DNA of 64,000 nt from Ectocarpus siliculosus (Eukaryota > Sar > Phaeophyceae > Ectocarpales > Ectocarpaceae). The DNA is taken from contig FN649729.1 in NCBI GenBank assembly GCA_000310025.1, positions 3,754,888-3,818,887 of the forward strand, given 5' to 3'. The position numbers and the translations under genes were made by a program. Under the pieces are notes generated by a model. That model was not told the origin of the DNA. It saw only the letters and a program-made list of their open reading frames with translations, and made no database searches. Positions within the stretch are counted from its first letter, which is position 1. Every line of letters starts with the position of its first letter. Of the stretch, positions 1 through 64,000 are shown one piece after another.

Positions 1-222
1 CATACCGTATATGACACAAGATAACACACCCCCTGGACCGATTTTCAAAGCTCGATTACTCCACGACGAAGAGGATGCATAAATGAAACAAAACGTTTTC
101 GAACAGCTCTCGACGAGACGGTTCCAACGCCGCCGTTTTCGGCGCTGTGACTCTTCCTGCTGTTGAGAAATCGAGCTTTGAAAATCGGCCAAGGGGGTGT
201 GTTATCTTGTGTCATATACGGT
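1..222. repeat. Palindromic repeat (57-bp arms, foldback type)
   Basis: Bases 4-60 and 167-222 are inverted copies of each other with few mismatches, separated by a loop of about 105 bp. The arms carry the core CCCCCTGG and the word ACACAAGATAACACA. The left end may run past the window edge. The right arm abuts the foldback element that starts at 223, so one has probably inserted beside or into the other. A diverged relative seems to lie at 12,800-13,130. No coding capacity; likely a non-autonomous DNA element. Confidence 0.7.
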
Positions 223-18657: not shown

Positions 18658-19800
18658 GAACGGCGTGTTGCTCCGGAACAGGGACGACATCCTCCAACGG
18701 TGGTCGAGATTCTTCAGCACCCTGCTCAACACCAAATCCCCCACCCTGAACCCAGACATCATCGAACGAGTGACGCAGCGGCCAGCGACACGTGACACTC
18801 AACGGTTGAGAGAGGTGCCAGAACTCGAGGAGGTGGCACGGGCAGCGAAAGGCCTCAAGAACTGGAAGGCACCCGGCCATGACTCCCTCCCTGCCGAGTT
18901 GCTCAAGATCGATGACGACGAACCCGTTGTCCTGAGACACCTCCATACCATCCTCGTCAAGGTGTGGAACGGAGGAGATATCCCGCGAGAGTGGAAGGAT
19001 GCAACCATCAAGGTGCTGTACAAGAAGGGTGACCAGTCCAACTGTAACAAATACAGGGGAATTTCGCTACTACCTCACGTAGGCAAGGTCCCCATCAAGA
19101 TCATCACCAACCGTCTAAGCGCCTTCTGCGAAGCCAACAACATCCGCCCGGAGGAACAGTGCGGATTTCGACCCGGGCGATCCACCGTCGACATGCTGTT
19201 CGTCGTGCGCCGCCTCCAGGAGCTGGGGCGGAGAAAGAAAATACCGCTCTACATGTGCTTCGTCGACTTTGAGAAGGCGTATGATTCGGTGGACCGAGAG
19301 ATGCTATGGAAGGTGCTGGCCAGGGCCGGGATTCCCGCGAAGCAAATCAAAGTCATCCGCCAATTCTACGATGGAATGCAGGCCCGGGTGCGCATGGACG
19401 ACAGAGAACTATCGGACTGGTTCTTCGTCACACAGGGCGTGCGACAAGGATGTGTGCTATCCCCACTACTGTTCAAGATCTTCTTCGCCGAGGTCCTCGA
19501 GGTCGTCGTTGTCCGATTCAGCGAGGATGATGTTGTTCTGCGGAACCTGGTGTGCTTAGAGGAGGGCAAGACGGAAGCGGGGGGGAGGGAGGAGACACCC
19601 CTTGACCGAGTACGGAGGGCAGTATCGGGGATGCTGTATGCCGATGATGCCGGCGTCGTATCGAGGTCTGCAGAAGGACTGGCGAGAATTATGACCATCA
19701 TCGTTGAGGTGTTCGGGGAGTTCGGGCTAACGGTGTCGGAGAAGAAGACGGAGACGCTCCTGATGCGCGCGAAGGACAAGTCGACTACAACATCACAACC
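18641..19800 (+). CDS. LINE reverse transcriptase region
   Basis: Copies the LINE RNA at the nicked site. Non-LTR RT landmarks appear in order: WKAPGHDSLPAELLK, KYRGISLLPHVGK, EEQCGFRPGRSTVD, CFVDFEKAYDSVDRE (catalytic Asp), GVRQGCVLSPLLF, MLYADDAGVVS (YADD catalytic pair) and SEKKTETLLMR. The frame differs by one from the endonuclease; DENGVLL precedes the domain at 18,655. It runs on out of register into a proline/arginine-rich peptide after 19,800. Confidence 0.92.
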
Positions 19801-19806
19801 CCCCCC

Positions 19807-20588
19807 CGCCTCCACCGCTGACCATCGAAGCCGCGGGACAGAAATACGCCCAGACGACCGAGTTCCGGTACCTCGGTGGCCTCGTCAACGAACATGGCGA
19901 CCTCACCCGGGAGATCAGCTACAGGAGCAGAGGGGCGTGGGCGTGCCTCAGGCGATATGGCCAGGAGCTCTTCGACAGACCGAAAGCACCATTCCGACTC
20001 AAGATCCGCCTCCTCCAGGCGGAGGCGATGGAGGCACTGCTGTACGGCTGCATGACATGGTCATCACTCAGCGGCCACTATCAGACGCTGCGGTCGACAC
20101 ACCACCGACTGCTCCTTCGAGTCATCGGGTACAAGGGCAAGAAAGACACCTACCGGCAGCTCTCGTACGCCCAGACGCTGAAGAGGGTCAGATGCCAGAG
20201 CGTTGAAGCCTCGATCCGACAACGACGCCTACTGTTCGCGGGAGCACTGGCAAGGCAGCCGGACGGGCGACTCCCGAAACGACTGATGCTCGGCGAGCTG
20301 GCGGGGGGGGAGAGGCCACGTAGGGGGGAACAGGAACAGAACTGGCCGAAGTGTGTGCTCGACGAGCTGAAGGCATTCGGGGCCGACCATGGATCTACGA
20401 CAACCGATCCATGTTGTCTCGGAATTCCCGTACCGAAAGACACGGCACCGAAGTTAAAGTCGACGAAAGCCGCGAAGGTGGAGGGGGGAGTACCCTGGCA
20501 TGCGGCGGTGCTGCAGGGAGCTGAGAGGTTCATGACCCCCTGGCACGAGAAGGAAGAAGAGGCCAGCCGACAACGAGCGCTCAAATGA
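19807..20588 (+). CDS. LINE C-terminal region
   Basis: In the third frame, downstream of the C run, the sequence resumes with EFRYLGGLVNEHGDL, ISYRSRGAW, LLYGCMTWSS and HHRLLLRVIGYK, the thumb and connection part found behind RTE/CR1-type reverse transcriptases. It ends with a lysine/glutamate-rich tail and a stop at 20,586-20,588. Confidence 0.85.
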
Positions 20589-20743: not shown

Positions 20744-20934
20744 TTGTTTGCCATGGGGGTTTGGGTTTCGTCGCTTGGCAACGACGTTGTAAAACAAGCC
20801 GCCCCCCCCGGTGTTTGCCATCGGGGTTTGGGTTTTCGTCGCTTGGCAAAGACGTTGTAAAACAAGCCCTCCACTCGGTGTTTGCCATCGGGATTGGGTT
20901 TTCGCCGCCTGGCAACGACGTTGGAAAACAAGCC
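20744..20934 (+). repeat. 66-bp tandem repeat, three copies, in the LINE 3' region
   Basis: TGTTTGCCATCGGG, GGGTTTTCGTCGC and TTGGCAACGACGTTGTAAAA recur three times in order. LINE 3' tails sometimes carry tandem repeats that serve as template recognition; that role here is inference. A minus-strand ORF across it is simply the repeat read backward. Confidence 0.88.
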
Positions 20935-26371: not shown

Positions 26372-29300
26372 TCAGTTCCAGGCGTCGGTGACGAGATCCG
26401 CAACACCATCATCTGTGTCCCCGTCACTACAACCCGGGTCGTCGCTCTTCCCACTCAACCTGTCAGATCCCCCATCGCTGGACCCAGATTCGCCCGAAAC
26501 CAACTTGATCAAATCGTCGAGCGCACCGACCGAACCGTCGCCGTTCTCGTCCGACTCGGGGTCCTCCAGTTCTGCGTTCTTCGATTCCGCGGCCTCGCCA
26601 GAGGAAACGTCGTTGCTCGCAGGTGACTCAGGGGCCCCCACCTCCACGCCGTTCTGCTCCGCTCCGTGCGATTCCTGCTGCTTCATAGAGGCCATGAAGA
26701 GTGCCATGGCATTGGCAACACTCCCGGATAGCCGTGGTCGAGTCTCGATGGGTGGTTGGGGTCGGGCGGCACCCTCGATCGGCCCAGTTTGACGAGTACC
26801 CACCGTAGGCCGGGATGCAGACCTCCCCCCTGCTTGCACGGGTGCCGGCGCCGCCCGACGTTGGGTGCAACGACCTCTGCAGCCGCAAGCGAGCGAGCAC
26901 TTCCTGTCCTTGCACATGCACCTGTCGCACAGGGTCGTCTCCGGATTGCAACCGCACGCTAGCGTGATTGTCTTTCGGCGCTAGCGTGATTGTCTTTCGG
27001 TCTGGGGCGATGTAAGAAAACTCGGACAGGTCAAGCACGCAGTTCTTGACTGTGAGTTCGATGCCGTCATTCCCCTTTCCTCGTGGGTTGACGCTCCATC
27101 CTTTGCCGGCAAACTCTGTCGCCGGCATGGTCTCCCATAGGCCATTCTGCCAGTACCGGAAGATGGCATTACCCCGTTCGGCCTGCTTGCGCAAGGAATA
27201 ATATGACGGACAGATGGCGGTCGTCTTCTTCTTGGGGAGTTGGAGGATGGCGTAGCGGATCACGCTCACGTAGGCTTCGACGTCGCCATAAACGCTTTGG
27301 ACCACCTGGGCTGGAGTTAAATGAGCAGTGCCAAACGCCGCTTCATCCTTGTAGAAGAACAAGGTCGCCAAAAGCTTCACGCATTCGTCGACATCCACGG
27401 CCCACGTGCCGTCCTGCTCTTCGAAGAACAACGGCTTATCAAACAAACCTTCCGTCCGTACGCTCTTAAGGACGAGTACCCACATCTCGTCGAACGGCAG
27501 CCCGGAAATTGCCGGGAGGTAGTCACAGCCCGACTCCAGGAAGGTTAGGGCGAACAGACGGACCTTGTCGTTGTCCGTGGGAATCCAGCTCCCGAAGGTC
27601 AATGGCGGCCACGCGGACTCGCTTCCGTCCTGGAGTTCGCAGATGCTGGCGAACACTCCGTTCATCCACAGGAACTTGGTCTCGCCACCCACGACCCTCA
27701 GGACTGTCACATCAACTGCCCTCTCGCCACGGGGCGTGAGCCAACCAGTTGTCATCGCCAGTAGAATGATCATCCATAGGTCCGTGTCTACCGATGAAAC
27801 GACCCACTTGTCGAAGCTTTTCCCCCAGTACTTCTTCGCCCAAGCGATGAAGTGTATCACGGAGAGCTCCGCCTCGCCGATGTCTGGCCCACGCTGTCGC
27901 TCGACGCCCTCGATCGTGTCGGTTCTGTCTCCAAAGTGAAGGAGTGGTTCAGTTTCGGGAAGCGCCTCCCCGGCACCTTCCCTTGCCATCTCGAGACCTA
28001 TGCCCTCGGCATCTACACTAGGTGGATGATCAGCACTCAGATCAGGCTCACCTCTAACGCCATAGAATGCGACGATTCCATTCGGCTTGGTGTCGCCCGT
28101 CCAGACATCATCAGCTAGCACGCGCGTGGCGAGGTGGGCGGCGATTCCGTCCCGCGCCGCCTTGCCATCGGCTCGAAGCCATGACCCATACTGTAACGAA
28201 GGAACTGGGTCCGTTGACTTCGGGTCGAAGGTCCTAGAGCACTCACCAATTTTCTCGCTTCTCCCAAGCTGTTCGTGTCCTTTGATTACGGGCACCAGTT
28301 CCTGTCGGTCGTAGCACACCACGAGTAGCTCCGTCGACTGCAGCCACTTCGACAACAGCTGATTCTTGAAGTAGTCGATAATCCCGCAGTTCCCTTCTCG
28401 AGATATTCCGGGTGCACCCCTTGGTGGATAGACACGGGGAGATCCACGCCATGAGCGTCGGCTTCGTAAAACGGGTCGTCTGCGAATCCATCGGCACAAT
28501 GCTCTCTGACCCATTTCCCTGGACCTGCCGCCTTGTTGGCGTGCTTGGCTCCTGATACGTTAAAAGGAGAGATTTCCAACAGGGGTGTATGGTGGTGGTG
28601 GTGGTGGTGGGGGGTGAACACAATGCGATGCGGTATGCATTACGGTAATAACAGTCAAAACACGGGCGTGGAGAATGGGTGAACTTCGGCTGGGAGCGAG
28701 AGCTCGAGATGACAACGCTCTTCAGCGCTTAATCTGTACAGTCAGACTAACCCGCTACAGAGTCAATACATATCTACTCGTTTAAATTGCGCACGCTCTC
28801 TCCCTCACCTCCCGTCGCGTTCGCCATGCTGTACGGCGTGGCCGCTCCTATGGACGCCACCATTTCCAGCATCTGGTCTTGTGTCACCACACCCCCGCCT
28901 TCTCTGGCGGCATCAAACATGTTCAGCGTGAGGGCCTTCCACTCTTGGCCCCCAGCGTAGGAATTGCCGACGGAGTCCTTCAGTGCAGACGACCTCCCTT
29001 GACTCTTCGTGGCCTTGTTGGTGCTGTTCCTAGCCGGGATGGAGAAAACCTTCTTCTTGGTCGCGCCCTTTAGTTGTTTCTTCTTGAAGACGTAGTACAG
29101 GACACACTCGTGCATTTTCGCACGAGCTTTGACGGCCGCGTCGATAATCTCTTGCCACTTGACCGGCGGAAACACTCTCCCGTCCAACGCCACGACCTTG
29201 TCTTTGCCATCGTCGCCTTTAAATGCCGGGCTCTCTCTCAAGCAGTCCATCGCCGCCCTGACTGCTGGCGCACGCTTCACCGCCAACTCTCTGCAACGGT

Positions 29301-39164: not shown

Positions 39165-39600
39165 ACCAACTGATGGAGTGAAAACAGTAGGAGTGAAAGC
39201 AGTAGGGGTGAACGCAGTAGAGGTGAAAGCAGTAGAAATGAAAGCAGCAAGGGTGAAAGCAGTATCAGTGAAAGCAGTTGGATGGAAAGCAGTGGGGTTA
39301 AACATTACGAGTGAAAGCAGTGAGACTGAAATCAGCATGAGTGAAACCAGCAGAAGTGAAATCAGTAGGAGTGAAAGCAGTAAAAGTGAAACTTGTAGGG
39401 GTGAAACCACTATGAAAGAAACCAGTAGAAATGAAAGCAGCAAGGGGGAAAGCAGTTCCAGTGAAAGGAGTTGGAGGGAAAGTAGGGGTCAAAACAATAC
39501 GAGTGAAAAAAAGTTAGACTGAAATCAGTAGGAGTGAAACCAGTAGGAGTGAAACTAGTAGGAGTAAAACCAGTAGGAGTAAAACCAGTTGGAATGCAGC
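39165..39600. repeat. 15-bp minisatellite (GTGAAAGCAGTAGGA)n
   Basis: About 28 degenerate units of 15 bp in a row, with variants in the last five bases. The + frame reads VKAVG-type repeats then SE(T/S)S-type repeats. Because 15 is a multiple of three all frames remain open; I take the ORFs as by-products. Confidence 0.92.
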
Positions 39601-52100: not shown

Positions 52101-55100
52101 CATTTAGTCCTTCCCGAAGCCTCCTGACACGAGATACCACTGCTACCACCAACACTCGGGTTCGGTAATGGTCGGCATGGTTTGGTATTCCCTACTATTA
52201 TTGTATTTATCACGGTAACTTGGTTTTCACCAATTACCGCGGAATAACTATCCCGGAATTTATCGTGATAAAAGTGTACCGAGGGGGACCCTGATATTTT
52301 TGCAGAAGATATCTTGCGTAATGTCCATGGCCACCCCTAGGGGATATAGATGCTGCACTCCCTTCACTTCCATCCAACACCAGCAACAATCTTGACCGTG
52401 TCACCGGCGCTACCGTCCTATCTCTTTGCTCCCTCCTCGGCTTCGTGAGAGTGTTTTTTCCTTCTTGTGTACATGTACTTCGTGCTTGTTTCTTACTGTC
52501 CTGCCAGATGGGCACGCAACCCGCCGTCCTCTTCCAACCTAGATACAACCTCTGATACAACCCTTTCCTTCTTCACGAAGGCGTTCGGCAATAATCAGGG
52601 GGGTGGGGGTAGAGGTGATCACTGACTAAATAGAGGAGCAAGAAAGTAGGGGCTTTGAAACAAGAACTCTCTGGCTCAAGGAGCCTGCGGGGGATCCACG
52701 GAATCTTGAATCACATAGAGTACGCGTGGCAACCGGTGTTTTCGGGCGCCGCCTACAACGACCCCGCCCACGCCGTCACACACGCCATCAACCTGCCCTT
52801 CCAAAAAGAAAAAGATGATGAAAAAGATGAAAAGGTGCCGATCTTCACGAAGGGTACAACCTCCCCAACGTCTGTCTGTCGAGGACGATTTCTCTTCTCG
52901 AAACATGACACAAAGCAAAAAAATTCTGGAACCGGTTGTACGCAAGGAATTGCTATCCATGTATGCATATCCATATTCATGTGTTATTGGTCGATTTGAT
53001 CGACAAGCAACCCCGCCACTTTTAAGCCTATTTATCTAGTGCGTGATTTGGTCTATCGTATATCGACGAGAATCCCCCGGCCACTACTAATACTATATTA
53101 GTAGAGGCTACATCCAGTGTGTGCTTCGGTCGATGTTTATCGACAGGTACCCCCCCCCCCCCCCGCCCGCGCGCACACGCGCTCACCTGTATCCGATGTT
53201 GATGGCCGTCTCCATCTTGTCCCCCGTGAGGACCCACAGCTTCACGCCGGCCTTGCCGAGGTCCGCGATCGTCGCTGGCACTTCGTCCTGCAGCTTGTCC
53301 TCGATGGCGGTAGCGCCAACAACGTCCAGGTCGGCCTGGGCGCAAGTGATCGCATCGTCGTGCAATAGCACGGCAGAAGAAGGGGCGGCGGGGTTATTGT
53401 ACACGGGGGAGAGAGAGTGCGGTATGGACGATTGTGTCACGAACACCAATAGCGTGGTGCAGCAGTAGCGCCGATAGCAGCTGAAGCGGTTACTTTGCCG
53501 CTCCGTCGTGTGAGTGAACTTCCAGGCTTAAGAGTTTCACATGCGTTTGTACCCATCTGTTAGACTTGGATCGAGACTAATCGCGCAAGCTCTAATCAGA
53601 CCGCAACCGGCTGACGTGACTTGGTTCGAGCCTTCCCTTTCCCCCCCCTGACACAACAACCTTTATGGACGTTTCCGTACAGCTACTACAATTTGAAACC
53701 CTTTGAGACAGATGAAAACACAGCGCCAGCACCACAACCACCGCCACCAATAACAACACATGCTACTCCAATACCAAACAATTCGAGACAGCGACTGCTG
53801 CAGCACGGTGTTAACAACGCACACCTCACCTCGACTTCCTTGGCCACCTCGGCGATCTGCTCCGCACGGTCGCCGGTGGCGATGGACGCCTTGCGGTACT
53901 TCTCGTACCACTCGTCGAAAAACTCCTGAAGGCAGCAGAGAAACACACACACGCGCAAACAAATGGGAGAACAGCAGGTTGTAAAAAAGAAAAAGAGAGG
54001 GAAAAATGATAAAATTGTCGGCGGAAAGCGCTATTTACACATTCGTTTTGCTCTGCTGGGTGGCCCATCTGTTGGTTCTTCTCGGCTCCCCCCCGTCGTC
54101 AGCAGTGCCCCAACCTGCTCTTCCTTCTCTAACTCCTCCGAAAGCTCGACAACCTAACAACAAAGCCAGAACAGCATGCATTACGTCCGAAATTTCGATG
54201 GCGTCTTACGAGAGGGTTTGTCCGCCCTTTCCACGTCTCACTTTCTTTCTTCTCTCTATTGTACCGTTTTGCTCCTTACATCAGAGGTATTTATTTTCCT
54301 TGCTTCCTTCTCCTCTCTACGCACTTTCTCCTTTCCTCAGAGGTATTTCTTTTCCCTGCTTGCCTGAGACATCTCCTTCTTGGCCAGCAGGAGGGTGCGA
54401 AGACCGTCGTTGGAAAACACGCCAAGATGAGAAGCCACGGTTTCCTTGTCAGACCCCATGTACCCCCTCGAACGGTCCATGATGATGTTGTCCGCCCCCT
54501 TCACCGTACACAACAATGGATTAAGACGGGGGAGAGGGCGGGGGTACTGTTAGTCCATGACGATGTCCGAGCCCTTTACCAGTAGATAACCAGGGATACG
54601 GGATACGGGGAGGAGTACTCAACACAGCCGTAGTCAACATGAGACCATTGCCTGTAATACCGGGACGGGGCTATTCAGGGGGATGGCGTACTCTCATGTT
54701 TTGCATGCCTTAGCGGATAGACCATTGACCACGCGCCTTCGAGAGGACGGAGCACTGTTCGCACAGGACTTATCATCAGCCAATCGTTCCTTCCTGCTAT
54801 TCAGGTGGGGGGGGGATAGTGGAAAGAAAAAAAAATGAGAAAAACAGAAGGCACCCTGTTCGTGATGAAGCTGTCTGTTCCCTACATACAACAGCAGCGG
54901 TCACCTGAGTTCACGGCAAAACCAAGGACCACAAAGTTACCGGTAAGCAAGGGTATTCTCTAAGGAAGACACCAGGCCTCCTCCCACTCAAGTCGTAGAT
55001 ATCTCCAATCCAATCCGGTGCTACAATGCCATTACACACAGAGAGACCCCCTGCCGCACTACATGTCTCCTCCGACTCGTACCGCAAGAACGAAAATTTC

Positions 55101-56247: not shown

Positions 56248-57356
56248 CACCCACAAAACAAGACTCCCTCCCGCGACCGATCCAATGACCCACCTTTCCC
56301 CCGTCCACCAACGCCTCCTCGTCCGGCGACTCCGCCTGCATCTGCTTCTGGCCCGTCTTCGGGTCTTCCTCTAGCACCACCGTGTGGTTCAGAGCCAGGC
56401 ACAGCGCGAAGTCTAGCGGCGCGCTACCCTTCTCGGCGCCGGCGATGTTCGACGCCAGCTCGGATAGCGGGGGTGCGTCTACCGCGTGCTGGCCAAAACC
56501 ATCGTGGGGTTGAAGGTAAGGGGCGGGCAAAACACATGAGGGAGGGGGGGGGGAAGAGATAGAGTGGGAAATGATGAGGGGCGAGGAGTGAAGTTTGGAG
56601 GGTGCGTGGTTCACGGCGATCGTCGAGAAAAAACAGACACAGCACGGGCTCGGGCAATCCGGGTGTTCCAAACATCGGAATATAACGCATGTAGATGGCT
56701 GACGCACAGGGAGTTAGCTTCTTCGCAACGGCAGCTGTTTTTTTTTTTCGTGCTACATTTATTATGGCGACAGTCCCCCCAATTTTTCGTTGCGAGACGT
56801 GTACTGTACTACACTTGGTGTCAATGTATTTTTTCGTACAACTACAACCATCCAGGGTGACACAGGAGGGGGTAAACAGTGGTATGCATGGACATTTATC
56901 ATTGTTGTTTTTTGGTCCAGAGTCCCCCCCGAAGAACAAACCAAAACAAGACGTACTTCAAAACACACAACACGCACAAACAACGGGCGACGTCACACAC
57001 TGAAGACCCAAGAATGCCTGTTGCCTGATAACTACTATTTACTCAGTCCAACACAAGAATACCAAACCCGCACAAGCCTTCCGTGTGCACGTATACCTGG
57101 CAAATGCGCGCCTACAAAAAAGCAACAAAAAAGCATAGAATCGACGCCTTCTCAGCAACGCTCTCACCGTCAGCTGCTGCGGGGTCATGAGGTCCTTGGA
57201 CTTCTGGTCCAGCTCCCCGTATATCACCCCGCCCACGCTGCAGCGCTTGAACTTCATGAGGTTCTGCGTCAGCGTCCCCGTCTTGTCGCTGAAGACGTAC
57301 TCCACCTGCCCCAGGTCGGCCCCCATATTCGAAGACCGCGCTTGGGCGGGGGTGTC
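43166..57356 (-). CDS. P4-type ATPase (phospholipid flippase), 18 exons, 5' part absent
   Basis: Moves phospholipids from the outer to the inner membrane leaflet at the expense of ATP. Exons (high to low): 57168-57356, 56294-56488, 55409-55579, 54364-54498, 53830-53925, 53187-53335, 51862-52012, 51193-51426, 50149-50349, 49308-49439, 48854-48937, 47888-48046, 46806-46997, 46234-46392, 45545-45629, 44774-44922, 43884-44078, 43166-43393. All join in phase and give about 967 residues. Landmarks: [10 protein letters not shown] and DKTGTLTQN (phosphorylated Asp), [25 protein letters not shown] (ATP site, split by an intron), [32 protein letters not shown] in M5, [12 protein letters not shown], then M7-M10. 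The actuator domain, M1-M3 and the PISL-type M4 are missing: about 350-400 residues should lie beyond 57,356 but were not found before the window ends. P4 ATPases usually pair with a CDC50 subunit; none is seen here. Confidence 0.93.
43636..43664. repeat. (CAA)n microsatellite in the last flippase intron
   Basis: About nine CAA units, with further scattered CAA/CAG triplets to 43,860. Gives spurious polyAsn ORFs. Confidence 0.9.
45545..46392 (-). CDS. Flippase exons for M9-M10 and the membrane exit
   Basis: Two exons (46,234-46,392; 45,545-45,629). The first codes [17 protein letters not shown] and FWLIIIQ, the second [19 protein letters not shown], matching the end of the P4 membrane domain. 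The intron between them is rich in CAG, CAA and CAC triplets (45,935-46,200). Confidence 0.88.
46806..48937 (-). CDS. Flippase exons for M5-M8
   Basis: Three exons (48,854-48,937; 47,888-48,046; 46,806-46,997). The first holds M5 with FYKN and ends GFSGQ; the second holds M6 and GIFDKDVG; the third holds M7 and M8 ([19 protein letters not shown]). Introns between them carry a dispersed repeat and a 120-bp duplication. Confidence 0.9.
47000..47310. repeat. About 120-bp direct duplication in a flippase intron
   Basis: GGGGTGTTCGAGYGTG, TGACGGGTGCAACATTG and CAGGAGCGT recur in order at 47,010-47,105 and 47,193-47,300. The first copy begins at the edge of the M7 exon acceptor. Confidence 0.75.
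47583..47735 (+). repeat. Dispersed repeat, copy B (about 150 bp), inside a flippase intron
   Basis: Second copy of the repeat at 21,255-21,395, opposite in orientation to the flippase gene. Confidence 0.85.
49220..49261. repeat. 21-bp perfect tandem duplication
   Basis: CATGGAACAGACCCACGCATG occurs twice without change, just downstream of the intron boundary at 49,308. Confidence 0.97.
50149..50349 (-). CDS. Flippase exon with the hinge motif
   Basis: 67 codons: [28 protein letters not shown] and [14 protein letters not shown], where the two Asp residues coordinate Mg2+. Acceptor TCCAG, donor CAG-GTACGC. Confidence 0.95.
50370..50930. repeat. Degenerate 100-130-bp tandem repeats in a flippase intron
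   Basis: About five diverged units share RAAACCGTGAGACA, CATGGGATCA, TTTCTGYYGAGAC and ATCCACCATC words. This 721-bp intron (50,350-51,192 less flanks) seems to have grown by local duplication. Confidence 0.65.
51193..51426 (-). CDS. Flippase exon with a variable insertion
   Basis: 78 codons. The first part ([19 protein letters not shown], then an acidic linker) is low complexity and family-variable; the end [10 protein letters not shown] is the conserved strand. The start assumes acceptor GGCAG at 51,427-51,431, which fits phase; alternatives exist. Confidence 0.7.
51449..51640. repeat. About 95-bp direct duplication in a flippase intron
   Basis: Both copies start with a T run and GGGGAGGGAGA, then GGTGATTGRWTTGTTG, ACGATGGTT and ATGTAAATGCAG. 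Copies at 51,449-51,535 and 51,543-51,628. Confidence 0.85.
54364..54498 (-). CDS. Flippase nucleotide-domain exon with GC donor
   Basis: 45 codons from GADNIIMDR to [12 protein letters not shown]. The acceptor is GTGAAG. The donor is CAG-GCAAGC; no GT donor nearby keeps the phase, and the next exon ([10 protein letters not shown]) continues exactly, so this is a GC-AG intron. Confidence 0.85.
56196..56246. repeat. (CCA)n-(CAA)n microsatellite in a flippase intron
   Basis: Compound triplet run close to the exon ending at 56,294; translates to polyHis, polyGln or polyThr in different frames. Confidence 0.9.
57168..57356 (-). CDS. Flippase exon with the phosphorylation site
   Basis: First visible exon; acceptor GATCAG, donor ACG-GTGAGA. 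DKTGT is coded at 57,273-57,287, preceded by the P4-specific [10 protein letters not shown] and followed by [12 protein letters not shown]. It begins in phase zero, so an upstream exon must exist. Confidence 0.95.
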
Positions 57357-58111
57357 CTGATCGCAGAGTGTGTCACACGGGACGACAGCGGCACGTCAGC
57401 GGACGAAAAAAGAGTCTTGCCACTTCCCCCGACATTTTTTCAACAGGCGGCGGAGGCCGAGGAACAACACGCACGAGCACGAAAACAACACCAACAGGGA
57501 GGCATAAAAAAGCGCCACCGCTCGAGAAAATATGGTCGTTGACAAGTCGAGGCTAAAACAAAAAAAAAAAACGCAAAAACTAGGAGGCATTTCTGATGCC
57601 TGGGTAAATGGGCTTTTTCTACAGAAACGTTCCTCGTACAAGTATATCGTGGCTGTCAACGGCCTGCAGAGGATTTAAAACGAAACGAACCGTAGCCGAC
57701 AAGGGAGGACCTGCGGTTACAACTATAATGAAGGGCGTCCTGCAGCCGAACACCCTTTCCTTGTAATTTTCCTCGGCTCCAATACTTCAATTCAACACCG
57801 TGATGGCATCTCGCGCTACGCGTACCTCATATACTCTGAGCTATTCAGCTAATGCTGTTGCGCTAGTGGTTTGTATCTCGCCCCGTCCCAAGCCCCTTCG
57901 GCGATTGGCCCCGTGAAGGGCCCCATCTATCTCTCTTACGCTTAGTAAGCCTTCTTCGGCATTATTTCGCTTACTGAAGATTACGCCCGTCAGTGGGGTG
58001 GGTGGTGGTGGGATGGGGGCAATCAGGCATGCAGCCAAGACCCGTATGCGTCGCCAGGCTAGAGTCGTCACGTACATACATACCCTCCCCGAAAAAAGGA
58101 GAAGAGACAGA
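57357..58111. other. Presumed flippase intron, left part
   Basis: No P4 ATPase exon was found here in any minus frame. The region holds A-rich runs and no recognised gene and passes into the hairpin array. Confidence 0.5.
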
Positions 58112-61100
58112 GAGAAGCGCCATTCCGTCGGAGCTGGATAGAATTCCACCAGAAGCCAGGGGCAGCGGATAGCCCAAGGAAACCAAACCCCAAGATCAAC
58201 ATCGGTAACAAGCGGGGGAGAGCCCACTCCTACATCTGAACTCCATGCCGCTGCCCCTGGCCACTCGTGAAATTCTACCTAGCTCCGATGGAAGGGCGCT
58301 CGTGACTAGTTCCGCCGCCTTGGGTCGCACGGGTATACACACGCTCGTATGATACAAGGCGGCGGACCTAGTCACGAGCGCCATCCCGTCGGAGCTGGGA
58401 AAAACTCCACGAGCGGCCAAGGACGCAGCGGGCAGCAAAGGCATCCCAAACCCAAACCTCTCATTCCGCTGCCCCTGGCCGTTCGTGAAATTCTACCCAG
58501 CTCCGACGGAAGGACGCTCGTCGCTAGTTCCGCGGCCTTGAGTCGCACGGGTTTACACACGCTCGTGTGATACAAGGCGGCGGACCTAGTCACGAGCGCC
58601 ACCCCGTCGGAGCTGGGAAGAACTCCACGAGCAGCCAGGGGCAGCGGATAGCCCAAGGCACCCAAACCCCACCTTCGACATCGGAAACAAGCAGGGTAGA
58701 GCCTACTCCTACATCTGAACTCCATGCCGCTGCCCCTGGCCGCTCGTGAAATTCTACCCAGCTCCGACGGAAGGGCGCTCGTGACTAGTTCCGCCGCCTT
58801 GAGTCGCACAGATATACACACGCTCGTGTGATACAAGGCGGCGGACCTAGTCACGAGCGCCATCCCGTCGGAGCTGGGAAAAACTCCACGAGCGGCCAGG
58901 GACAGCGGACAGCGGACAGCCGAGGCACCCTCACCACAAAGTATTCAGATCAACAGACGAAGTATCCACAACGCGGAGACATGAACGGGCTGGCCAACAT
59001 GTTTCCGTCCAGGGCCGTGGGGTTAGGGCGCCTTAACAATACGTGCTGCCCCTGGCCGCTCGTGAAATTCTAACCCACCTCCGATGGAAGGGCGCTCGTC
59101 GCTAGTTCCGCCGCCTTGGGTCACACGGGTATACACACGCTCGTGTGATTCAAGGCGGCGGACCTAGTCACGAGCGCCATCCCGTCGGAGCTGGGAAAAA
59201 CTCCACGAGCGGCCAAGGACGCAGCGGGCAGCAAAGGCATCCCAAACCCAAACCTCTCATTCCGCGGCCCCTGGCCGCGCGTGAAATTCTACCCAGCTCC
59301 GATGGAAGGGCGCCCGTGGCTAGTTCCGCCGCCTTGAGTCGCACGGGTTTACACACGCTCGTGTGATACAAGGCGGCGGACCTAGTCACGAGCGCCATCC
59401 CGTCGGAGCTGGGAAGAACTCCACGAGCAGCCAGGGGCAGCGGATAGCCCAAGGCAACCAAACCCCACCACCGACAGTGGAAACAAGCAGGGTAGAGTCT
59501 ACTCCTACATCTGAACTCCATGCCGCTGCCAGTGGCCGCTCGTGACATAGTTCCGCGCGCCGTTGGAAGTCGGCACGGGTATACAAACGCTCGTGTGATA
59601 CAAGGCGGCGGACCTAGTCACGAGCGCCATCCCGTCGGAGCTGGGAAAAACTCCACGAGCGGCCAAGGACGCAGCGGGCAGCAAAGGCATCCCAAACCCA
59701 AACCTCTCATTCCGCTGCCCCTGGCCGCTCGTGAAATTCTACCCAGCTCCGATGGAAGGGCGCCCGTGGCTAGTTCCGCCGCCTTGAGTCGCACGGGTTT
59801 ACACACGCTCGCGTGATACAAGACGGCGGACCTAGTCACGAGCGCCATCCCGTCGGAGCTGGGAAGAACTCCACGAGCAGCCAGGGGCAGCGGATAGCCC
59901 AAGGCACCCAAATCCCACCACCGACAGCGGAAACAAGCAGGGTAGAGCCTACTCCTACATCTGAACTCCATGCCGCTGCCCCTGGCCGCTCGTGAATTCT
60001 ACCCAGCTCCGATGGAAGGGCGCTCGTCGCTAGTTCCGCCGCCTTGAGTCGCACGGGGATACACACGCTCGTGTGATACAAGGCGGCGGAACTAGTCACG
60101 AGTGCCATCCCGTCGGAGCTGGGAAAAACTCCACGAGCGGCCAGGGGCAGCAGAGATGGATAATGCACCCCACGCCCCACCGCGATGGCGATGGAGCAGT
60201 ATCAAAAGAGGGCATGTACCGCCCGAGGTCGCGCCGCAAGTGCCCCAAGTACTACCGCCGCTAGGGTGCGGAGCCTTGAGATCCCGCTGCATCAGCTGGT
60301 TGTCCTGCTTGTCTCCGATGATAGCGGTGGGATTCGGGTGCCTTGACTTCATTCACTGCCCGTGGCCGCTCGTGGCATTCTGACGAGCTCCGATGGAAGG
60401 GTGCCCGTGGCTAGTTCTGCCGCCTTGAGTCGCACGGACATACACGCTCGTGTGATACAAGGCGGCGGACCTAGTCACGATCGCCATCCCGTCGGAGCTT
60501 GGAAGAACTCCGCGACCGGCAAGGGACAGCGGACAGCGGACAGCCGAGGCACTCTTAACCCCACCGCGATGGCGATGGAGAAGTATCCAGATCAACCGAC
60601 GGAGTATCCACAGCACGAAGTCATTGAGCTGCGGATGGCCGCCCATGAATTTCCGTCCTGGGCCGGTGGGGTTAGGGTGCCTTAACAATATATGCTGTCC
60701 GTGGCCGCTCGTGAATTTCTACCTAGCTCCGATGGAAGGGCGCTCGTGACTAGTTCCGCCGCCTTGAGTCGCACGGGTTTACAAACGCTCGTGCGATACA
60801 AGACGGCCGAACTAACCACGAGCGCCATTCCGTCGGAGCTAGGGAGAAATCCACCAGAAGCCAGGGGCAGCGGATAGCCAAGGCACCCAAACCCCACCAT
60901 CAACATCGGAAACAAGCGGGCAGGGCCCACTCCTACATATGAACTCCTTTCGGCTTGCCCCTGGCCGCTCGTTGAATTCTGTCTAGCCTCGATGGAAGGG
61001 CGCCCGTGGCTAGTTCCGCCGCCTTGAGTCGCACGGGTATACACACGCTCGTGTGATACAAGGCGGCGGACCTAGTCACGATCGCCATTCCGTCGGAGCT

Positions 61101-64000
61101 GGGAAGAACTCCACAATCGACCAGAGGCAGCAGATATGGATAATACACTCCACACCCCACCGCGACGGCCATGGAGCAGAATGAAAAAAGGACTACCGCC
61201 GGAGGTCGCGCCGGAGGAACCCCAAGCACTACCACCACTAGGGTGCAGAGTCTTGAGATCCCGCTGCATCAGCTGGTTGTCCTGCTTGTCTCCAATGATA
61301 GCGACGGAGTTCGGGTGCCTTGGTTAGCTGCTGCCCCTGGCCACTCGTGAGATTCTACCCAGCTCCGATGGAAGGGCGCTCGTGACTAGTTCCGCCGCCT
61401 TGAGTCGCACGGGTATACAAACGCTCGCGTGATACAAGGCGGCCGAACTAGCCACGAGCGCCATTCCGTCGGAGCTGGGAAGAATTCCACCAGAAGCCAG
61501 GGGCAGCGGATAGCCCAAGGAAACCAAACCCCACCACCGACAGCGGAAACAAGCAGGGCAGGCCCACTCCTACATATGAACTCCGTGCCCTGCCATGGCC
61601 GCTCGTGAAATTTTGCCCAGCTCCGACGGAAGGGCGCCCGTGGCTAGTTCCGCCGCCTTGAGTCGCACGGGTATACACACGCTCGTGTGATACAAGGCGG
61701 CGGACCTAGTCACGAGCGCCATCCCGTCGGAGCTGGGAAGAACTCCACCAGCAGCCAGGGGCAGCAGATATGGATGATGCATTCCACACCCCACCGCGAC
61801 GGCCATGGAGCAGAATGAAAAAAGGGCTACCGCCAGAGGTCGCGCCGGAGGAACCCCAAGCACTACCACCACTAGGGTGCGGAGTCTTGAGATCCCGCTG
61901 CATCAGCTGGTTGTCATGCTTGTCTCCAATGATAGCGGCGGAGTTCGGGTGCCTTGGTTAGCTGCTGCCCCTGGCCACTGGTGAGATTCTACCTAGCTCC
62001 GATGGAAGGGCGCTCGTGACTAGTTCCGCCGCCTTGAGTCGCACGGGTATACAAACGCTCGCGTGATACAAGACGGCCGAACTAACCACGAGCGCCATTC
62101 CGTCGGAGCTGGGAAGAATTCCACCAGAAGCCAGGGGCAGCGGATGGCCCAAGCCACCCAAACCCCACCACCGACAGCGGAAACAAGCGGGGCAGGCCCA
62201 CTCCTACATATGAACTCCATGCCGCTGCTCGTGGCCGCTCGTGAAATTCTGCCCAGCTCCGACGGAAGGGCGCCCGTGGCTAGTTCCGCCGCCTTGAGTC
62301 GCACGGGTATACACACGCTCGTGTGATACAAGGCGGCGGACCTAGTCACGATCGCCATTCCGTCGGAGCTGGGAAGAACTCCACAATCGACCAGAGGCAG
62401 CAGATATGGATAATACACTCCACACCCCACCGCGACGGCCATGGAGCAGAATGAAAAAAGGGCTACCGCCGGAGGTCGCGCCGTAGGAACCCCAAGCACC
62501 ACCACTACTAGGGTGCAGAGTCTTGAGATCCCGCTGCATCAGCTCATTGTCCTGCTTGTCTCCAATGATAGCGGCGGAGTTCGGGTGCCTTGGTTAGCTG
62601 CTGCCCCTGGCCACTCGTGAGATTCTACCTAGCTCCGACGGAAGGGCGCTCGTGACTAGTTCCGCCGCCTTGAGTCGCACGGGTTTACACACGCTCGTGT
62701 GATACAAGACGNNNNNNNNNNNNNNNNNNNNNNNNNNNNNNNNNNNNNNNNNNNNNNNNNNNNNNNNNNNNNNNNNNNNNNNNNNNNNNNNNNNNNNNNN
62801 NNNNNNNNNNNGTGCCCCAAGTACTACCGCCGCTAGGGTGCGGAGCCTTGAGATCCCGCTGCATCAGCTGGTTGTCCTGCTTGTCTCCGATGATAGCGGT
62901 GGGATTCGGGTGCCTTGACTTCATTCACTGCCCGTGGCCGCTCGTGGCATTCTGACGAGCTCCGATGGAAGGGTGCCCGTGGCTAGTTCTGCCGCCTTGA
63001 GTCGCACGGACATACACGCTCGTGTGATACAAGGCGGCGGGGACCTAGCCACGAGCGCCATTCCGTCGGAGCTGGGTAGAATTCCACCAGAAGCCAGGGG
63101 GGCAGCGGGCGGCGAAGGCATGCCAAACCCCACCACCAACATCAGAAACAAGCGGAGCAGAGCCAACTCTTACAGCTGGACTTCATTCCGCTGCCCCTGG
63201 CCGCTCGTGAAATTCTACCCAGCTCCGACGGAAGGACGCTCGTGGCTAGTTCCGCCGCCTTGAGTCGCACGGGTGTACCCACGCTCGTGTGATACAAGGC
63301 GGCGGACCTAGTCACGATCGCCATCCCGTCGGAGCTTGGAAGAACTCCGCGACCGGCAAGGGACAGCGGACAGCGGACAGCCGAGGCACTCTTAACCCCA
63401 CCGCGATGGCGATGGAGAAGTATCCAGATCAACCGACGGAGTATCCACAGCACGAAGTCATGAGCGGGATGGCCCCCATGTTTCCGTCCTGGGCGGTGGG
63501 GTTAGGGTGCCTTAACAATATATGCTGTCCGTGGCCGCTCGTGAATTTCTACCTAGCTCCGATGGAAGGGCGCTCGTGACTAGTTCCGCCGCCTTGAGTC
63601 GCACGAGCGTTTACAAACGCTCGTGCGATACAAGACGGCCGAACTAACCACGAGCGCCATTCCGTCGGAGCTAGGGAGAAATCCACCAGAAGCCAGGGGC
63701 AGCGGATAGCCAAGGCACCCAAACCCCACCATCAACATCGGAAACAAGCGGGCAGGGCCCACTCCTACATATGAACTCCTTTCGGCTGCCCCTGGCCGCT
63801 CGTTGAATTCTGTCTAGCCCCGACGGAAGGGCGCCCGTGACTAGTTCCGCCGCCTTGAGTCGCACGGGTATACACACGCTCGTGTGATACAAGACGGCGG
63901 ACCTAGTCACGAGCGCCATTCCGTCGGAGCTGGGAAGAACTCCACCAGAAGCTAGGGGTAGCGGATAGCCCAAGGAAACCAAACCCCACCACCGACAGCG
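58112..64000. repeat. Array of about 20 long hairpins (about 180 bp each)
   Basis: Each unit is an inverted repeat: left arm GCTGCCCCTGGCCGCTCGTG, then CAGCTCCGAYGGAAGGGCGC and CTAGTTCCGCCGCCTTG; a centre CGCACGGGTATACACACGCT; and the right arm as reverse complement. A representative unit is 58,729-58,906. Hairpin centres lie near 58,337, 58,557, 58,817, 59,137, 59,352, 59,591, 59,807, 60,069, 60,445, 60,787, 61,051, 61,423, 61,681, 62,057, 62,310, 62,690, 63,019, 63,284, 63,613 and 63,874. A right arm alone opens the array at 58,112-58,170. Spacers fall into a few classes. From 61,051 to 62,690 units alternate 260 and 375 bp, a higher-order dimer of about 630 bp. ORFs of 60-160 codons recur in every unit and are by-products. 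Confidence 0.95.
62712..62811. other. Assembly gap (100 N)
   Basis: Exactly 100 undefined bases inside the hairpin array, a conventional placeholder for a gap of unknown size. The sequence just after it (62,812-63,040) repeats 60,240-60,469. Confidence 0.99.

Follow-up and report, generated by a model that had tools for sequence, protein, structure and literature searches.

What kind of sequence is the long tandem array of hairpins that closes a 64 000-nucleotide stretch of Ectocarpus siliculosus DNA? The whole of that stretch is called the window here. The array lies on the minus strand, occupies positions 58112–64000, and continues about 1 kb past the window, to approximately 65000–65040 in window coordinates, where its right end was set by eye. 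An earlier note, made from the letters of the sequence, had counted about twenty units and proposed three identities for them: a tandemly amplified foldback element, a protein-binding array, or a source of double-stranded RNA.

The array is about 6.9 kb long and contains at least 23 similar hairpins, all of one family and all on the minus strand. This number is a minimum because a run of exactly 100 N (62712–62811), taken as a nominal assembly gap, sits within the array; judged from the matching flanks, the simplest fill of this gap would be about 154 nt, so that the array length is likewise a lower bound, and further units could be hidden there. Each unit consists of a hairpin of about 147 nt (the span of the Rfam model), or about 185 nt including the outer stem, followed by a spacer. 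The spacers between the 147-nt matches fall into classes of 111–116 nt, 71 nt, 169–194 nt and 229–234 nt, apart from exceptions of 84 and 216 nt; the spacer classes noticed earlier are thus real.

Eighteen hairpins in the window, all on the minus strand, exceed the curated cut-off (142 bits, a covariance-model score) of the Rfam family RF03175, the MIR3454 microRNA precursor, with scores of 149.9–172.2 bits. They are U01 (58265–58411, 172.2 bits), U02 (58483–58629, 156.3), U03 (58744–58890, 171.8), U04 (59060–59207, 152.1), U05 (59279–59425, 170.3), U07 (59729–59875, 168.4), U08 (59990–60135, 156.7), U09 (60370–60514, 155.9), U10 (60709–60855, 158.2), U11 (60969–61115, 149.9), U12 (61345–61491, 166.1), U13 (61603–61749, 161.1), U14 (61979–62125, 167.1), U15 (62239–62385, 165.9), U16 (62942–63088, 150.3), U17 (63205–63351, 164.6), U18 (63539–63687, 150.4) and U19 (63800–63946, 154.1). 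Two more minus-strand hairpins, the scrambled U06 (59510–59657, 55.4 bits, under the cut-off) and one cut by the assembly gap (62615–62711, start inferred; Rfam match 62666–62711, 40.3 bits), bring the window total to 20, in agreement with the earlier count, and a half hairpin, a single outer arm at 58116–58168 on the same strand, lies at the left edge of the array. Hairpins U20–U22, also on the minus strand, are past the window end.

The array and MIR3454 agree in sequence, strand and structure: 18 of the 20 window hairpins and 19 of the 23 genome-wide reach the cut-off on the minus strand, while the plus-strand mirrors of the 18 score only 109–129 bits. A whole-genome search with RF03175 at E values up to 1, in which the best 47 of 18,774 first-look candidates were scored so that a divergent copy elsewhere could escape, gave 45 matches, namely 23 on the minus strand (19 above the cut-off) and 22 weaker plus-strand mirrors, all of them in the array. 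The same model found sub-cut-off matches in two of 14 control genomes. The units and the Rfam consensus differ at model position 120, with T in each of the 21 that were aligned and C in the consensus; the copies in the Rfam catalogue therefore probably came from another strain or species. MIR3454 is an Ectocarpus family (esi-MIR3454), and its cataloguing as a miRNA in Rfam is presumably based on small-RNA reads. Tarver et al. use esi numbers neighbouring MIR3454 (PMC4513859). A 21-mer printed for esi-MIR11352 is absent from the genome at up to one mismatch, which again points to a strain probably different from the one behind the catalogued miRNAs. Weak Rfam matches to mir-2300, mir-5350, mir-3718, mir-2941 and MNV_3UTR, far under their cut-offs, were taken as chance. 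The family identity shows that the locus is more than an anonymous repeat.

The units are also strong hairpins by folding. With 30 nt added at either end, 22 hairpins were folded (19 in the window and three beyond it, the gap-cut unit being left out), and every one of them forms 71–89 pairs, which bears out the stem of about 85 bp estimated before; ordinary pre-miRNAs are shorter than these stems. Two extended units were compared with shuffled sequences: U03 folds at −161.7 kcal/mol (z = −17.9) and U01 at −143.4 kcal/mol (z = −14.9), and for each of them none of 200 shuffles was as stable as the real fold. Fold stability says nothing on the strand, because the plus strand of U03 folds about equally well (z = −18.9). 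When 4.5 kb of the array was folded as one molecule, internal pairing prevailed in nine of 15 hairpins and pairing with other units in the remaining six, and local folding during transcription must therefore be assumed. Of the central palindrome, described earlier as kept, 12 exact copies are present among the 23 hairpins of the array (ten of these copies in the window) and none in positions 1–58000; about half of the units thus keep it exactly.

The array is placed within a gene by its flanks. An exon on the minus strand at 57216–57356, downstream of the array, and another ending at 65607, upstream of the array and outside the window, join without a gap into a P4-ATPase (flippase) peptide, whose best match is 6k7g (E = 2.1e-30), with residues 2–91 aligning without gaps to residues 349–438 of the 6k7g chain. 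Between these exons runs a predicted minus-strand intron of 8250 bp with GT..AG ends (57357–65606, of which 57357–64000 lies in the window). Because the two exons join into one minus-strand flippase peptide, the array is intronic and in the sense direction of its host gene, and it takes up about 6.9 kb of the 8.25-kb intron. The flippase assignment rests on the joined peptide, since neither of the frames holding the two flanking exons has a Pfam match above cut-off. A Pfam search with 18 stop-free frames from the flippase region, each taken singly, gave one match above cut-off, the N-terminal flippase domain in an upstream same-strand frame (L010:7559–8275; PF16209, 5.1e-19), and three matches below it (hydrolase, DUF7502 and ceramidase); the sub-cut-off hydrolase match belongs to a downstream frame at 53186–53527, which has a TGDK motif. 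The upstream exon end with its donor site (GACGAGACCCAG|GT) is present in three tandem copies at 65436–65618 in window coordinates (about 2323–2505 in L010), which are possible alternative 5' splice sites. The survey by Tarver et al. placed 75% of Ectocarpus miRNA loci inside protein-coding genes, for the most part in introns, and with three exceptions these share the strand of their host (PMC4513859).

Among the three identities proposed at the outset, a source of double-stranded RNA fits best, since the units match a miRNA precursor family and lie in what is predicted to be a same-strand intron. The locus has the look of a small-RNA source multiplied in place, not of a mobile element or a novel sort of satellite. 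More specifically, we regard it as reasonably probable that microRNA precursors of the MIR3454 family form a tandem cluster here within one P4-ATPase intron, oriented and co-transcribed with its host and drifting almost neutrally. Its strand and position suggest that the flippase pre-mRNA would carry the hairpins as a polycistronic primary transcript, and the family name that Dicer would cut the stems into duplexes of about 21 nt. One strand of each duplex would then be loaded into the Argonaute of the alga, of which a single one is known in Ectocarpus (PMC12867755), and a higher copy number would be expected to raise the small-RNA output. The parts of such a locus are ordinary; the copy number is unusual for the lineage.

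How did the copies accumulate? In the 21 aligned units, divergence is 10.7% among left arms and 11.1% among right arms, but 20.6% between the two arms of one unit. At eight columns of the stem, a mismatch is carried by between 12 and 21 of these units, so that the mismatch variants remarked on before are indeed common to many units. The hairpin therefore arose first and was then multiplied whole, its mismatches being inherited. Larger duplications agree with this: a multi-unit block at 60342–61114 (minus strand) is repeated at 63176–63945 with 95.4% identity, and a two-hairpin higher-order repeat at 60668–62075 (minus strand) matches 61306–62711 at a shift of 638 bp with 93.1% identity. U10 and U18, together with the spacer cores on both sides of each, show 0/147, 0/64 and 0/139 substitutions with small indels only, whereas the hairpins beyond these spacer cores differ at 6/147 and 13/145 positions. 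Whole hairpins and multi-hairpin blocks have thus been duplicated in tandem, and the earlier idea that units spread as whole hairpins is supported by both the arm divergences and the block duplications.

Among the unbroken units, divergence is greatest in the pair at the right edge (102.6 and 130.6 bits), and the first unit at the left edge, with a half hairpin beyond it, has the highest score of all (172.2 bits). This pattern is in part as expected if the array grows and shrinks by unequal exchange, and the divergent right edge also agrees with a second reading, possible though rather unlikely in our estimate, in which an intronic hairpin was multiplied by unequal exchange or replication slippage and any small RNAs from it are incidental and regulate nothing. 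This purely neutral amplification draws further support from the sequence comparisons among units.

These comparisons used 21 of the 23 hairpins, the scrambled U06 and the gap-cut unit having been excluded beforehand. The arm alignment had been suggested as a place to look for compensatory changes, and it yielded hardly any: RNAalifold found one in only 1 of 49 pairs, and in the Rfam structure changes on both sides affect 3 of 55 pairs, all five pair measures being inside the shuffle range. The true structure, with 95.4% of cells paired over 55 stem pairs in the 21 units, does stand above versions slid by 1–3 columns (35–43% of cells paired), also in covariation score (0.087 versus 0.016–0.051) and in further pair types, but not in pairs changed on both sides (3 versus 0–4); an excess of this kind is as a hairpin inherited from one ancestor would give. 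If the minus-strand RNA has to pair, G-U states should be commoner than A-C states. In the 55 columns with a Watson-Crick majority, 15 G-U and 16 A-C states were counted (40 versus 29 cells, a slight lean to G-U), and in all 66 columns 87 G-U and 89 A-C cells. The match between the two arms of one unit is no better than that between arms taken from different units (0.206 versus 0.204, permutation P 0.75), although recombination among units would blur such a match. A pairing constraint is therefore unsupported by the five measures, the G-U and A-C states or the own-arm comparison.

Hairpins and spacers have diverged to similar degrees (7.4–9.2% for hairpins and 10.0% for spacer cores, in 35 non-independent comparisons covering 16 of the 21 spacers between located hairpins, with two U06 comparisons left out). 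The best 21-nt window (86–106) has 10 changes against an average of about 30 (column permutation P = 0.31), so that no mature miRNA segment stands out as conserved beyond chance; the youth of the array limits the power of both the arm and the window tests. No clear sign of selection since the amplification was thus found on the pairing or on one mature segment, and any output is therefore probably young and loosely constrained, perhaps without a fixed target. The earlier note had named independently varying arms, with no related unit elsewhere, as the mark of a neutral local amplification, and the outcome is largely of that kind: the arms of one unit are no closer to each other than to those of other units, and no further unit was found. 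Neutral drift since the amplification is therefore well supported. Absence of function is a different matter: the family is catalogued as a miRNA in Rfam, 18 of the 20 window hairpins still score above its cut-off, and drift after a recent duplication is little informative on function.

With an inverted-repeat unit whose ends are conserved, the array could also be a foldback or MITE-like transposon that has turned tandem. Such an element would be expected among other copies of itself, yet in the 189-Mb genome a DNA search, the RF03175 family search and a search with one spacer class, each scoring the best candidates, all failed to find a dispersed unit. The tandem amplification of whole hairpins therefore stands from the proposal of a foldback element, and the mobile origin does not; we consider it very improbable. 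Little speaks, too, for an array acting at the DNA level through proteins bound to CTCGTG/CACGAG. This hexamer, correctly noticed before as repeated within the units, occurs at 72 sites in the 6.9-kb array and at 21 in 58 kb, but its spacing varies with the spacer class, and it is frequent because the hairpin sequence itself is repeated. Besides the repeated hexamer the protein-binding proposal found no support, and it is hardly to be credited.

A further reading is an hpRNA-like siRNA locus, in which each stem of about 85 bp would give several duplexes of 21 nt, and these would silence a fast-evolving gene in the manner of Drosophila hp-CG4068. The long inverted repeat that distinguishes hpRNAs from ordinary pre-miRNAs is present in all 22 folded hairpins, stems of 71–89 pairs are long enough for three or four 21-nt duplexes each, none of the possible registers is singled out by conservation, and the copies are in tandem. 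The arms of hpRNAs usually derive from their target, and hp-CG4068 has a known one. In the array the arms showed no homology to another locus among the 50 matches listed (E up to 0.001). Six 21-nt consensus tiles over both arms were then compared with the genome outside the array, allowing up to three mismatches, with reversed patterns as controls. Tile 8–28 gave 7 outside matches (6 in the control), tile 29–49 gave 3 (1), tile 46–66 gave 4 (25), tile 83–103 gave 5 (5), tile 104–124 gave 1 (6) and tile 119–139 gave 2 (2). There is thus no excess of targets: 22 outside matches stand against 45 in the controls, and only two of the six tiles are above their control, by 2 and 1. No near-perfect target emerged from the six tiles, which sites spanning tile borders or with more mismatches would escape. 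The single match with two mismatches (C483:299005–299025) overlaps only short open frames (40–69 aa) in the 220 bases inspected, and it was dropped. Lack of a target excess suits a neutral array as well, and Rfam treats MIR3454 as a miRNA; on balance we hold the hpRNA-like reading to be unlikely.

The hp-CG4068 cluster too has about 20 tandem hairpins, which come from a common transcript, with 20 copies in D. melanogaster and 9–14 in three sister species, and its siRNAs are lost in dcr-2 mutants (PMC10317233), whereas the Ectocarpus array is known here from its sequence. By analogy with Drosophila hpRNAs directed against selfish genes, the array might be a tandem siRNA factory of the hpRNA type in a stramenopile, with an unfixed register and fast expansion and contraction against a fast-evolving or lost target, a conjecture that we think doubtful.

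A tandem cluster of MIR3454-family precursors, the reading preferred here, has a parallel in mouse. The hairpins of the mouse C2MC cluster are shorter than those of the array. Otherwise C2MC, in intron 10 of Sfmbt2, likewise consists of head-to-tail miRNA hairpins in one intron, with phased growth and a unit unique to that intron; it is larger (55–65 kb, 65 miRNA genes) and was built from B1 retrotransposons and CA/TG microsatellites (PMC3212979). In Ectocarpus itself, Tarver et al. found few multi-gene miRNA families and little clustering, just two pairs of loci being separated by 5 kb or less, and concluded that duplication was not a major route to Ectocarpus miRNAs (PMC4513859). Set against that survey, an intron with no fewer than 23 copies of a single catalogued family would stand out as a clear exception, or else exemplify what its filters set aside. 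The same authors set apart, as weak candidates, 65 loci in complex palindromic regions (PMC4513859); these share extended palindromic sequence with the array, which may belong with them. Their criteria for bona fide miRNAs include at least 15 nt of the miRNA paired with the opposite arm, reads for both miRNA and miRNA*, a 2-nt 3' offset, and a common 5' end in at least 66% of the reads (PMC4513859). With the level of pairing seen here, a hypothetical 21-nt segment of the stem would probably have at least 15 nt paired. A later study listed 295 putative Ectocarpus miRNAs, aided by a palindrome-based search and with duplicates kept as separate models (PMC12867755). No mention of a tandem arrangement of MIR3454 was found in the parts of the Ectocarpus miRNA literature examined, and an earlier description is quite possible. 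The array offers a natural test of whether small-RNA dose depends on the copy number of an intronic hairpin, and of the way in which arrays of this kind expand.

Several other features of the window and the genome were recorded. The EsV-1-7 domain, which is expanded in brown algae, has at least 150 matches in the genome, in keeping with a brown algal origin. On the minus strand at 26628–28514 is a 628-aa open frame with no Pfam match at E 0.01. An open frame of 513 aa on the plus strand at 18665–20206 contains a reverse transcriptase domain (PF00078, 1.5e-33) and is probably a retroelement, and just 3' of it, at 20745–20934, are 2.8 copies of a 66–68-bp tandem repeat. Finally, an imperfect array at 39175–39593 comprises about 28 copies of a 15-bp unit or, alternatively, 2.2 copies of a 193-bp unit.
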